Source: Timaviella obliquedivisa GSE-PSE-MK23-08B (GTDB lineage Bacteria > Cyanobacteriota > Cyanobacteriia > Elainellales > Elainellaceae). From it: a DNA stretch of 59,898 nt. The notes under the pieces are model-generated. The model had not been told where the DNA came from. It ran no database searches and saw only the letters and a program-made list of their open reading frames with translations. Shown one piece after another: positions 10,863 to 37,321 of the stretch; position 1 is the stretch's first letter; each line of letters opens with the position of its first letter. The stretch spans positions 1-59,898 of the forward strand of contig JAHHII010000020.1 of NCBI GenBank assembly GCA_019358855.1, in the 5' to 3' direction. The translations under genes and the position numbers were made by a program.

Positions 10863-11753
10863 ATGTTACTCGATATTGCAAGCCTGATGACTCAATCGGA
10901 GATGGCTCAACTCGCTTCTCCAGGGCCCATGATTGGTTCTTTGCCGATTCGCTGGTATGGGTTGCTGATCGCCTCTGCGGTTTTAATTGGGGTTAGTTTA
11001 TCGACCTATTTGGCAAAACGGCGCGGCGTAAACCCAGATTTGATCAGTGACTTGGCAATTTGGTTGGTCGTTGCTGCTATTCCCTGTGCGCGGCTTTACT
11101 ATGTTGCGTTTGAGTGGGAAAGTTATGCTTCTCGTCCGGCAGAGATCTTGGCAATTTGGCATGGAGGCATTGCCATTCATGGAGCGCTGATTGGTGGTGC
11201 GCTTGCCAGCTTAATTTTTGCCAAGCTGAACAAAATTTCGTTTTGGGTGCTAGCCGATTTAGTTGCACCGTCTGTAATTTTGGGTCAGGCGATCGGGCGA
11301 TGGGGTAATTTTTTCAACTCTGAGGCATTTGGTCGTCCGACCGATTTGCCTTGGAAGTTGTACATTCCTCCAGCCCAACGACCCAATGATTATGCTCAGT
11401 TTGAGTACTTCCACCCTACGTTTCTTTACGAATCGCTGTGGAACTTGGGTGTATTTGCTATTTTGCTAACGCTGTTTTTTCGGGGGTTGAAGCCCCACAG
11501 TAAGCTCAAGAATGGCACCTTAATTCTTACCTACTTGTTAGCGTATAGCTTGGGACGGTTTTGGATTGAAGGACTGCGGATGGATAGTTTAATGCTAGGA
11601 TCTTTGCGGATTGCTCAATTTGTTAGCTTGTTAGGCATTGTTTTGGGGAGTGGAGGATTGTTTTGGCTGTACAAAATGCGACGATCGCTCCCCGATGTGA
11701 TTTCACCAGATGCATCTTTAGGAAACTCCTCTTCAGGCAGAACTAAAGTTTAA
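10863..11753 (+). CDS. lgt: Prolipoprotein diacylglyceryl transferase
   Basis: A 296-residue integral membrane enzyme that transfers diacylglycerol from phosphatidylglycerol to the lipobox Cys of prolipoproteins. Key signatures are [13 protein letters not shown] (essential His region) and [13 protein letters not shown] (Lgt signature with catalytic Arg/Asn), plus the late [13 protein letters not shown] motif. About seven transmembrane helices are visible. The length is usual for cyanobacterial Lgt. The ATG at 10863 is followed by a short leader before the first helix; [10 protein letters not shown]-like homology starts around residue 22. Confidence 0.93.
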
Positions 11754-11758
11754 CAGGC

Positions 11759-11852
11759 AAAAAAAATCCCAGAGGAAACCTCCAGGATTTGAATCAGGGT
11801 GCATCTACCAGTCACCTTTACGCAGTAGGTAGGAGATGTCCGGTGATTGTTT
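11759..11852 (-). ncRNA. Probable small RNA, copy 1 of a tandem pair, with intrinsic terminator
   Basis: Read on the minus strand, a stem-loop (CCTGGAGG-TTT-CCTCTGGG) is followed by a run of eight T at 11766-11759, a good intrinsic terminator. Upstream the segment contains ACCGGACAT (about 11846-11838), a small hairpin ACCTAC-TGC-GTAAAGGT, and GGTAGATGCACCCTGATTCA. These blocks recur in the same order in copy 2. A -10-like TATGAA lies at 11864-11859, putting a start near 11852. No protein frame fits. It could instead be read as an lgt terminator, but the T-run lies on the opposite strand. No known family was recognised. Confidence 0.6.
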
Positions 11853-11921
11853 ACAGAGTTCATACAGTCTTTACGCGAACGCAGAAGTTATAAGGATTCT
11901 TCTAAAAACTTTTGCTCTATC

Positions 11922-12028
11922 CAAAGAAAGACCCCAGAGGAAATCCTCTGGGGCTTGAATCAGGGTGCATCTACCAGCTACTTTTACTCACAGTAAACAG
12001 AATGTCCGGTATTCACATTGGTAGTTTA
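11922..12028 (-). ncRNA. Probable small RNA, copy 2 of a tandem pair, with intrinsic terminator
   Basis: Same architecture as the copy 170 bp away: ACCGGACAT at about 12012-12004, a small hairpin TTTAC-TGTGA-GTAAA, the conserved GGTAGATGCACCCTGATTCA block, then a terminator stem CCCCAGAGG-ATTT-CCTCTGGGG followed by TCTTTCTTT. Stems are kept while their bases differ from copy 1, and loops and the single-stranded block are identical, which is what selection on RNA structure produces. The TGTAAAC word at the presumed 5' end is shared and follows an AT-rich -10-like TAAAGAAT (12040-12032). Located between lgt and cobM, opposite to both. Confidence 0.6.
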
Positions 12029-12138
12029 CACATTCTTTAAAAGAGGGCATCTTTTTTTAAGGGCTTATCGAAGGTGGATAAGTTTTAGGGTAACCAAAAA
12101 AGTTGCCATTGCTCAAGTTTATTCTCTGACATTACCCC

Positions 12139-12963
12139 ATGAGTACTATTCGTTTAGAGCCAAAAGTGTACATTGTGGGTGCAGGGCCCGGTGACCCCGA
12201 TTTATTGACCGTAAAGGCTCAAACGCTTTTGCAAAATGCCGACGTAATTCTGTTTGCCGACTCCCTTGTGCCCCGCCAAATTTTGCAGTGGGTGCAGCCG
12301 GATGCAGAAGTCATTCGGACTGCCAATAAGACTTTAGAGGAAATTTTGCCTTTAATGATTGACCGAGTGCGATCGCGTCTTTCGGTCGTGCGGCTTCATT
12401 CAGGCGATCCTAGTCTCTATAGTGCTGCCTCCGAGCAAATGCAGGCACTCGCGGCTGCCGAAATTCCTTTTGAAGTGATTCCTGGCATTAGTGCCTTTCA
12501 ACTTGCGGCTGCTCGTCTTAAGGTAGAGTTGACGGTTCCCGAGCTGGTGCAGACTATTATTCTGACACGCATCAGCGGACATACCCGTGTTCCTGAAACA
12601 GAAGACCTTAGTGCCCTCGCAGCCCATCAAGCGACCCTTTGCCTTTACCTTAGTGCCCGCCATGTCCAAGCCGCGCAAAATAAGCTGATGCAGCACTATC
12701 CCAGCGATTGCCCGGTGGCAGTTTGCTTTCGTTTAGGCTGGCAAGATGAAAAGCTTTGGGTGGTGCCGCTGAGCGAAATGACAGCAATTACAGAGCGAGA
12801 AAACTTGGTGAGGACAACCCTATATGTGATCAGTCCGGCGTTGGAACTGGCGGGAAATGTGGATGGCAGCGGGTTTAAAGGAAACAGATTTAAGAACGAT
12901 GGGGGGCGATCGCGTCTTTATAATCCTGACCACGCACATATTTTTCGCCCCAAAGAACCTTAG
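12139..12963 (+). CDS. cobM: Precorrin-4 C11-methyltransferase
   Basis: A 274-residue SAM-dependent tetrapyrrole methylase (CobM/CbiF class) acting at C-11 of precorrin-4 in cobalamin synthesis. The N-terminal signature VYIVGAGPGDPDLLTVKA and the LHSGDPSLYSA segment define the family, and ELVQTIILTRISGHTRVP is typical of CobM. The C-terminal ~30 residues beyond the methylase fold are basic and variable. It stands alone without other cob genes; no cobalamin riboswitch is recognisable in the leader. Confidence 0.92.
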   Translation: MSTIRLEPKVYIVGAGPGDPDLLTVKAQTLLQNADVILFADSLVPRQILQWVQPDAEVIRTANKTLEEILPLMIDRVRSRLSVVRLHSGDPSLYSAASEQMQALAAAEIPFEVIPGISAFQLAAARLKVELTVPELVQTIILTRISGHTRVPETEDLSALAAHQATLCLYLSARHVQAAQNKLMQHYPSDCPVAVCFRLGWQDEKLWVVPLSEMTAITERENLVRTTLYVISPALELAGNVDGSGFKGNRFKNDGGRSRLYNPDHAHIFRPKEP

Positions 12964-35518: not shown

Positions 35519-35758
35519 AAGCAGAGAAACCCAAAGAATTTGCTGAAACTTTTCTGAGCGACGGTGCACAGATCGTTGAAAACTGTGGGCACAATCGAAC
35601 GTGTTTTGACAGCTTCAGACTTCACACTTCTTCGTGAGTCGGGTATGAAAAGTACGTTTATCTGTAAACTTTGTACCTCTCTTCAGACAGATTCGATATC
35701 GTTATCAGGGTACATGTTATGACCTCTCCGTTCCCTTCATCCCCTTTATCTGAATCTA

Positions 35759-37321
35759 ATGAATCCATCACGTTCGCCTGATGTAGCTCTTTATGAACTT
35801 GCAACTAGCCTCGAACCCACTCCCCAGACTTTACAAATTAGCCCCACAACTTTTAAATCTTTAGTGGGAATTGTTTTAGATCTGTTGCTGGAGCACAACA
35901 TTGCAGCTACAATTTGGCTGAAATTGCCTAAAGGAGAAGTTTGGCAGTCAGAAATAGAGCGATTTTGCCAATCAGCGATCGCTCCCCATACGGTCTACAG
36001 CTTGCATACCTACCAAGAGCGAGTCAAAACCAACACCCACGTCCCACCCGCTGCAAGCCGCCTATCTGCCGATTGGAATGGCTTAGACACTCTTGACTTA
36101 AACACGGGCACTCCAGTTGCTATTTTAGAGGAAACCTCTCAAGTCTACAATCTTCCTCTGGCAGCCGAAAGTCAGCTTAAACGCGAATATTTCATCACAG
36201 TTGTCTCTAACGAATTCTGCGGTTCAATATTAGCGCATCGCCCCCGTTCACTTCGTCCGCGTGCAGAAGGTAATGGGATGGATCTACCTGACCCGAAGCT
36301 AGGCACAGACGACTCTCTAGAGCAAAAGCATCCTCTGTTTGGAATGCTTTCCTTCGACCCGGCAATTGTGCAAATGGCGATCGAGGGCATTAATCAAGCC
36401 ATTCGGTATGGGCAACCTGCAAGCCGATCTGATGCCGAAATCAAAGACCTTTTAGTCGGTTGGGAGCAGCTTCTTGCCCGAGGCGTTAAACCCACACTCA
36501 ACCCCAAAATGGTGAGCAACCTGCTGGCTAAACAAGTGCAGCGACAGGAAGAAATTTGGCGGAGCGGGGCAGCGCAACGGAGACAGGCAGACTCAGCATT
36601 AGTATTACGTCAAGCGAACGAAGACTTGCTTAAAACGCTGCAACAGAAAGATGAGTTCATTAAAAACTTAGGTCAAGAGTTACGAACGCCGCTGACCACG
36701 ATGAAAACTGCCCTTTCCTTATTGAACTCGCCGACCCTTAAGCCCCAACAGCGACAACGGTATATGGAAATGTTGAGCAGAGAGTGCGATCGCCAAGGTT
36801 CTCTCATTGCCGGGGTTTTAGACCTGGTACAAATTGAAAGCTCTCCTGACTCTGCGCCTATGGAGTCTCTTCGCCTCAGCGAAATTATCCCTGGCGTTGT
36901 CAGCACCTATCAACCCCTTGCGCAAGAGAAGGGCATCATGCTGGCATACACGATCCCTGAAGATCTACCGCCAATCTCTTGCTTTAGCCAAGGACTCAAG
37001 CAAATTGCAATTAACCTATTGCACAACAGCATTAAGTTCACGGCTAGTGGAGGACAAGTTTGGGTGAGAGCCAAACAGCAGGGCGACACCATTCAACTAG
37101 AGTTCCGCGATACAGGCATTGGCATTGTGGCAACAGAAGTCCCGAAGGTTTTCGATCGCTTCTACCGCATCCGCCAAGGAGGAGACGATGGTAACGGGGT
37201 AGGATTAGGGTTGGCGATCGTGCAGCAGTTGCTGGTTCGCTGTGGCGGATCAATCTCGGTGAGAAGTAAGTTAGGTGAAGGATCGGCATTTTGCGTCACG
37301 TTGCCCATTGAGCGATCGTAG
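35759..37321 (+). CDS. DICT-domain sensor histidine kinase with altered H-box
   Basis: A 520-residue protein. Residues ~1-160 match the DICT sensory domain (TFKSLVGIVLDLLLEHNIAATIWLKL). A coiled segment precedes a HisKA-like helix pair: EFIKNLGQELRTPLTTMK, where Gln306 (codon CAA) replaces the phospho-accepting His. The ATP-binding domain is intact: N-box NLLHNSIKFT, G1 DTGIGI, F-box VFDRFYRI, G2 GVGLGLAIVQQ. It has no membrane helix. It could bind ATP without autophosphorylating on the usual site, acting as a partner or regulator of another kinase. Confidence 0.85.
   Translation: MNPSRSPDVALYELATSLEPTPQTLQISPTTFKSLVGIVLDLLLEHNIAATIWLKLPKGEVWQSEIERFCQSAIAPHTVYSLHTYQERVKTNTHVPPAASRLSADWNGLDTLDLNTGTPVAILEETSQVYNLPLAAESQLKREYFITVVSNEFCGSILAHRPRSLRPRAEGNGMDLPDPKLGTDDSLEQKHPLFGMLSFDPAIVQMAIEGINQAIRYGQPASRSDAEIKDLLVGWEQLLARGVKPTLNPKMVSNLLAKQVQRQEEIWRSGAAQRRQADSALVLRQANEDLLKTLQQKDEFIKNLGQELRTPLTTMKTALSLLNSPTLKPQQRQRYMEMLSRECDRQGSLIAGVLDLVQIESSPDSAPMESLRLSEIIPGVVSTYQPLAQEKGIMLAYTIPEDLPPISCFSQGLKQIAINLLHNSIKFTASGGQVWVRAKQQGDTIQLEFRDTGIGIVATEVPKVFDRFYRIRQGGDDGNGVGLGLAIVQQLLVRCGGSISVRSKLGEGSAFCVTLPIERS

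Follow-up and report, generated by a model that had tools for sequence, protein, structure and literature searches.

Tandem NsiR1 genes between lgt and cobM

The window, i.e., the whole 59,898-base stretch of DNA analyzed here, contains two short minus-strand units between the plus-strand genes lgt and cobM, both of which were named by NCBIfam models above cut-off (Table 1). A preliminary description of the locus had placed tandem duplicated small RNA genes on this strand between these genes, and the Rfam search agrees with it: both units match model RF02399, the NsiR1 family, over its whole length (positions 1–60) and above its gathering score of 39 bits. NsiR1 is familiar as a small regulatory RNA of heterocysts, the nitrogen-fixing cells. 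The same matches dispose of the accompanying suggestion that the RNAs form an undescribed family. With the cut-off at 39 bits and scores of 58.7 bits for copy 1 and 50.8 bits for copy 2, its probability is close to nil. Spot 42, ErsA, and other weak Rfam matches scored far under their own cut-offs and were rejected.

The 20-nt block GGTAGATGCACCCTGATTCA is exact in both units and has only these two occurrences in the window. A search of all 59,898 bases with up to three mismatches gave no third match, and 100 shuffles gave none. The perfect conservation claimed for this block is thus borne out, as is its single-stranded state, since the core is largely unpaired in the predicted folds. The RNA starts were relocated: the Rfam matches put them near 11976 and 11810, and not near 12028 and 11852 as previously described. 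With lengths of 54 and 52 nt, an open 5′ core, and a Rho-independent terminator, the pair has the layout of the ~60-nt NsiR1 class, and on the model matches both RNAs are fresh members of this known family.

Table 1. Features of the tandem NsiR1 locus in the window and the sister RNA of the same genome (G000)
Feature	Coordinates	Strand	Remark
lgt, convergent neighbor	10863..11753	+	NCBIfam TIGR00544 above cut-off
NsiR1 copy 2	11759..11810	-	Rfam RF02399, 50.8 bits, RNA ~52 nt
Core of copy 2 (GGTAGATGCACCCTGATTCA)	11790..11809	-	conserved
-10 element of copy 2, GTAAAG	11816..11821	-	G-A-A letters
DIF1-like -35 of copy 2, ACCGGA	11839..11844	-	position -34, one mismatch to TCCGGA
NsiR1 copy 1	11923..11976	-	Rfam RF02399, 58.7 bits, RNA ~54 nt
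Core of copy 1 (GGTAGATGCACCCTGATTCA)	11956..11975	-	conserved, largely unpaired, predicted target-pairing region
-10 element of copy 1, GTAAAA	11982..11987	-	G-A-A letters
DIF1-like -35 of copy 1, ACCGGA	12005..12010	-	position -34, one mismatch to TCCGGA
cobM, divergent neighbor	12139..12963	+	NCBIfam TIGR01465 above cut-off
Sister RNA in G000	C4:45112-45135	+	L233:1110-1163; others L240, L241, L251, L260-L289

Folding and promoters of the pair

Each RNA is predicted to fold into a weak 3-bp 5′ loop, the open core, and a terminator hairpin. The terminator stem and T-run noted earlier are present in both copies, with whole-RNA folds of z = −3.18 for copy 1 (0/200 shuffles as good) and z = −1.65 for copy 2 (9/200). 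The claim that stem bases differ while pairing is kept also holds for the terminator, where a C-G pair of one copy is replaced by U-A in the other and two further pairs have become wobble pairs through a single change each. Several stem levels are altered on both sides among 19 related NsiR1 copies, in a tabulation of individual folds that is biased towards pairing. The short hairpin proposed upstream of the block did not stand: z is +0.79 in one unit, where 159/200 shuffles fold as well or better, and −0.74 in the other, where 46/200 do, i.e., it folds no better than shuffled sequence, and it sits between promoter elements.

Together with this hairpin, the upstream blocks TGTAAAC and ACCGGACAT had been taken for parts of the RNAs. 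They belong instead to promoter DNA with a DIF1-like −35 element. DIF1 is given as TCCGGA at −35 in the available text of PMC6133370, according to which a non-SigA −10 region is needed too. The letters conserved in NsiR1 promoters are G at −11, A at −9, and A at −7, and the pair has all of them. The word TGTAAAC does occur in both units as a minus-strand copy (from 12030 and from 11855), but it lies at about −54 from one RNA and −45 from the other; as the offset differs, it is not an element in shared register.

NsiR1 and its partners in the host genome

In the host genome (G000; 4.91 Mb in 29 contigs, 100% complete), seven NsiR1 copies at six sites score above the cut-off, two of them in tandem. 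All seven (7/7) have, at −36, −35, or −34, a hexamer that departs from DIF1 by no more than one mismatch. One of the remaining copies (C4:457841–457904, minus strand) precedes hetF (C4:458184, plus strand) in divergent orientation, and the others have varied neighbors. NsiR1 is also found upstream of hetF in four of the five relatives examined, the exception being G024, where no copy adjoins hetF. The gap is ~260–280 nt in three of these relatives and 593 nt in G039; the hetF frame of G233 is broken in its draft assembly. In Anabaena, as far as the available text of PMC8406250 goes, the nsiR1 genes lie opposite to hetF, the hetF start site falls within nsiR1.2, and change or removal of nsiR1.1 shifted hetF-gfp reporters little, which weakens the case for a strong cis effect.

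HetR was identified in G000 by NF009718 above cut-off, ~500 nt downstream of a PatX-like protein of 65 aa with the RGSGR motif. The order at this locus (C13:51663–53336, L232) is a DIF1-like TCCTGA, the PatX-like gene, and hetR, similar to Leptolyngbya BL0902, for which the accessible part of PMC11298460 reports a DIF1 promoter predicted before patX-hetR. The genome encodes one HetP-family protein. No match to nifD was obtained in G000 at E-values up to 1e-60, and hence nitrogen fixation by this organism is unlikely.

Conservation of the lgt–cobM site

The same-genus genome G233 has six NsiR1 copies, namely the lgt–cobM pair, the hetF copy, and three others, each of which shares at least one neighbor with its G000 counterpart. 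NsiR1 between lgt and cobM was also found in G039 and G053, and this arrangement with both genes was seen in six named records: Elainella Prado103, Oscillatoriophycideae NC_groundwater_1537, Leptolyngbya FACHB-321 and FACHB-8, uncultured cyanobacterium PMM_0085, and Cyanobacteria bacterium T3Sed10. Four further named records have NsiR1 with cobM only, and in G066 ~14 kb separates the copy next to lgt from the three next to cobM. Across the loci bearing lgt or cobM, DIF1 within one mismatch at −35/−34 precedes 20 of 21 distinct copies, the two of the window included.

The promoter is also widespread in named records at large, which we labeled heterocystous, non-heterocystous, or unclear by genus, assuming that Plectonema radiosum belongs with the non-heterocystous group. 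Among the matches listed, DIF1 within one mismatch at −35/−34 was present in 94/98 copies from 33 heterocystous records, 91/93 copies from 67 non-heterocystous records, and 20/23 copies from 19 unclear records. The heterocystous set comprises 98 of 103 copies, after removal of three whose upstream stretch was shorter than 60 bases and two that contained N; none were dropped from the other groups. The matches listed include NsiR1 of Leptolyngbya PCC 6406 and PCC 7375, Spirulina CS-785/01, Oscillatoria CS-180, Microcoleus vaginatus HSN003, and Phormidesmis priestleyi ULC007. Separately, two loci from metagenome-assembled genomes titled Clostridia and Verrucomicrobia (L019, L025) contain the exact 17-nt NsiR1 core with no DIF1 at −35/−34; these cores are either chance matches or cyanobacterial contamination.

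Co-occurrence of NsiR1 with HetR

We surveyed 388 genomes of the class, in which 200 have NsiR1 over the cut-off (the same number as the strong group in a split made by hand on best E-values) and 195 have HetR. NsiR1 is present in 193/195 hetR-positive and 7/193 hetR-negative genomes (Fisher p = 2e-99, relatedness ignored). The genomes are related to each other, and a table by family serves as a rough correction: 21 families have both, two NsiR1 only, one HetR only, and 19 neither (p = 5e-9). Within the hetR-positive genomes, NsiR1 occurs in 103/105 without nifD and in 90/90 with it, nifD being scored generously, as E up to 1e-60 (130 genomes, compared with 117 at the family cut-off). This distribution suggests that NsiR1 follows HetR and not nitrogen fixation.

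Five of the seven hetR-negative genomes with NsiR1 belong to families otherwise possessing HetR; G093 is 62% and G367 70% complete, while the assemblies of G243, G308, and G385 are split into 440–660 contigs. The other two, G006 and G021, are 99% complete and have kept NsiR1 (loci L236, L238, L242, L245, and L247), and neither a Pfam search nor a search with the G000 HetR found HetR in them. Their NsiR1 copies have TCCGGA or TCCTGA at −34/−35. Hence HetR is not strictly required for keeping the DIF1 promoter, and HetZ is a candidate for its keeper in these genomes, which offer natural cases for separating HetR from HetZ.

Conversely, G164 and G238 have hetR and no NsiR1 above the cut-off. Matches to RF02399 below the cut-off were seen in 11/388 genomes, plus one control genome, E. 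coli. Those in G278 and in the g98 genomes looked at, three out of six, do not contain the core and were rejected as terminator look-alikes, and those of G164, G238, G266, and G271 represent a second RNA, described below.

A sister RNA with the same core

The second RNA (class II, hereafter the sister RNA) has the 15-nt core UAGAUGCACCCUGAU in common with NsiR1 and a Rho-independent terminator. Its G000 representative scores 23.6 bits with the NsiR1 model, against the cut-off of 39, and besides sub-threshold NsiR1 an Rfam search of the G000, G164, and G238 units gave no family of note. In G164 and G238, this NsiR1-core RNA below the cut-off and without DIF1 is the only match. A strict pattern, TAGATGCACCCTGATGRN{1,7}RGAG, for which the reversed-pattern control gave 0 throughout, was found in 159/388 genomes, Nostocaceae among them. 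The sister RNA is present in 154/200 genomes with NsiR1 and in 5/188 others (G037, G164, G238, G266, and G271). HetR is encoded in 151 of the 159 genomes with the sister RNA, and none was found in eight. Among the matches listed there is usually one sister RNA per genome.

Sharing its core and terminator with NsiR1, the sister RNA differs in its promoter. DIF1 at −36 to −33 was found in 0/36 sister units, while in 30/36 the best TATAAT match is at −11 and has two mismatches or fewer, and 27/36 contain the palindrome GGGGTGACACCCC with no more than three mismatches (at −39 in 23 units and at −37 in 4), as compared with 0.4% of shuffled upstream stretches; in the G266 and G271 units the palindrome is visibly absent. 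The terminator stem is 98.5% paired over 33 distinct sequences, with 3/8 pairs changed on both sides, and its covariation score exceeds all 500 shuffles, although it may be inflated by relatedness and by drawing the structure from these same sequences. The literature we found does not describe the sister RNA, and a text search, with supplementary tables outside its reach, located the core letters in no cyanobacterial paper.

Related units were noticed in IMG/VR contigs. Two viral contigs, at L303:8805 (minus) and L316:3674 (plus), contain an NsiR1-like unit with CCCGGA or TCCGGA ~38 nt before a TAGATG core and a terminator-like hairpin; L303 also has terminase and portal genes, and its unit adjoins an IS605/TnpB-like gene. 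L301:1626 (minus) and L325:10992 (minus), on contigs of 103 and 74 kb, have the core, a terminator-like hairpin, and a TATAAT-like −10 but no DIF1, and may be relatives of the sister RNA that are carried by phages.

Candidate targets

In Nostoc, the available text of PMC9045159 describes pairing of NsiR1.4 with the start region of hetP-like alr3234, which it represses, and reports NsiR1.1 as a repressor of hetF. In G000, the hetP start region ranks 23 to 64 of 75 over the seven NsiR1 copies, and duplexes with the hetF start region rank 11 to 59 of 75. As a positive control, four hetP-like genes of Desmonostoc vinosum HA7617-LM4 (G283, recognized by its locus L128, whose sequence is contained without a difference in the named record L071) were paired with two NsiR1 variants, and the outcome was modest, with 2/8 tests at p ≤ 0.02, uncorrected. 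In one gene, which we guess to be the alr3234 counterpart, the site covers the start codon (p = 0.01 and 0.065); a second has a weaker site upstream (p = 0.02 and 0.08), and the remaining two genes gave p = 0.15–0.18. HetP as a Nostoc-type target in G000 is thus unsupported by the duplex ranks, with the control being modest. Since hetP is not part of the Rfam definition, these ranks count only against the same target and not against the family assignment.

A search of G000 for 12-mer near-complements of the core gave 23 matches, compared with three for the pattern read backwards. Five of the 23 were taken as NsiR1 genes and one as the sister RNA; the other 17 fall under a uniform-base estimate of ~22 and above the backward control. 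Two of the 17 lie outside open frames and at most 130 nt upstream of a frame of at least 60 aa. Within the window, a 12-nt near-complement with one mismatch occupies positions 35704–35715 (plus strand), 3 nt before an ATG and ~55 nt before an open frame (35759–37321, plus strand) that we presume to encode a histidine kinase.

Probable function of the pair and alternative explanations

The family assignment, the promoter anatomy, the seven copies at six sites, the copy beside hetF, the conservation of the lgt–NsiR1–cobM order, and the co-occurrence with hetR are read from sequence. The explanation of the locus that we consider probable is that of two NsiR1 small RNA genes with their own DIF1-type promoters and Rho-independent terminators, which in a host of filamentous type would be induced and whose core would block target mRNAs. 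The DIF1 promoter, with its link to HetR/HetZ, would switch transcription on, probably when nitrogen or developmental stress sets in. Base pairing of the 5′ core, which is mostly unpaired in the fold, with translation-initiation regions would then keep ribosomes off them, as in Nostoc. Several copies may provide dosage, and the differing linkers after the core may confer different secondary targets. Translation block by the open core appears the most likely mode of action, with copy number and linkers as its variables.

Transcription could also be independent of HetR, in which case HetZ or a sigma factor would recognize DIF1 and the RNA would serve general nitrogen or stress control. The DIF1-like NsiR1 promoters retained in G006 and G021, in which no hetR was found, speak for this, and the available text of PMC11298460 refers to Du et al. 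(2020) for regulation by HetZ, whether direct or indirect, via the DIF1 promoter; the tight co-occurrence of NsiR1 with hetR tells against it, and we regard it as rather unlikely. A mainly cis role has less to recommend it. The lgt–cobM pair might be antisense to a long cobM leader or to lgt read-through, as has been proposed for NsiR1.1 and the hetF leader. The geometry does resemble that at hetF, with NsiR1 on the minus strand and cobM on the plus strand, the start of cobM being 163 nt upstream of where the RNA begins, at a site conserved in relatives. However, the lgt-linked and cobM-linked copies of G066 are far apart, the remaining G000 copies have varied neighbors, and the Anabaena hetF reporters in the available text of PMC8406250 responded little to changes in nsiR1.1, so we give a cis role a small probability.

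That the copies are functionless relics from a heterocystous ancestor is very unlikely. This reading is favored by the lack of a nifD match in G000, but the core is exact, promoter and terminator are intact, and stem changes are two-sided (in folds biased to pairing). The retention of NsiR1 in nearly all hetR-positive genomes without nifD (103/105) and of DIF1 in 20/21 copies at the lgt/cobM loci also points against decay.

NsiR1 beyond heterocysts

The window pair resembles NsiR1 of Nostoc/Anabaena sp. PCC 7120 in core, length, terminator, DIF1 −35, and non-canonical −10, and the two genomes are alike in having multiple, partly tandem copies, including one that lies upstream of hetF and points in the opposite direction. 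In contrast, the copies of PCC 7120 form one array of 12, whereas those of G000 are dispersed over six sites; linkers and stems differ, and the hetP target is unsupported in G000. As the host has no detectable nifD, heterocyst-specific expression is unlikely to apply in it. An NsiR1-like RNA outside heterocyst-formers has been reported before: RNA162 of Limnospira indica PCC 8005, 57 nt in length, whose level changed under radiation according to the available text of PMC8400943, comes like the window pair from a non-heterocystous, hetR-bearing genus. In the literature found, we encountered no report of a HetR association on this scale or of its being independent of nifD, nor of conserved DIF1 beyond heterocyst-formers or the sister RNA; an earlier report of NsiR1 in non-heterocystous genomes is possible.

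We lean towards the view that two RNA classes of filamentous cyanobacteria share UAGAUGCACCCUGAU as a regulatory seed of ancient origin, namely NsiR1, which is multi-copy, DIF1-driven, and a near-obligate companion of HetR also in genomes without nifD, and the mostly single-copy sister RNA with a GGGGTGACACCCC operator. Heterocyst development would have taken over an older HetR–NsiR1–HetF circuit, and the two classes would bring different signals to the same targets. Provided that it is transcribed, the sister RNA would add another input to this set of targets. Judging by the genomic distribution, NsiR1 seems to be a companion of the regulator HetR outside heterocysts as well, and its label as heterocyst-specific seems to reflect where it was studied. 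Since it is short, easy to assay, preceded by a DIF1 promoter, and present at several sites in a genome, NsiR1 could serve as both a reporter and an output of HetR beyond heterocyst-formers.
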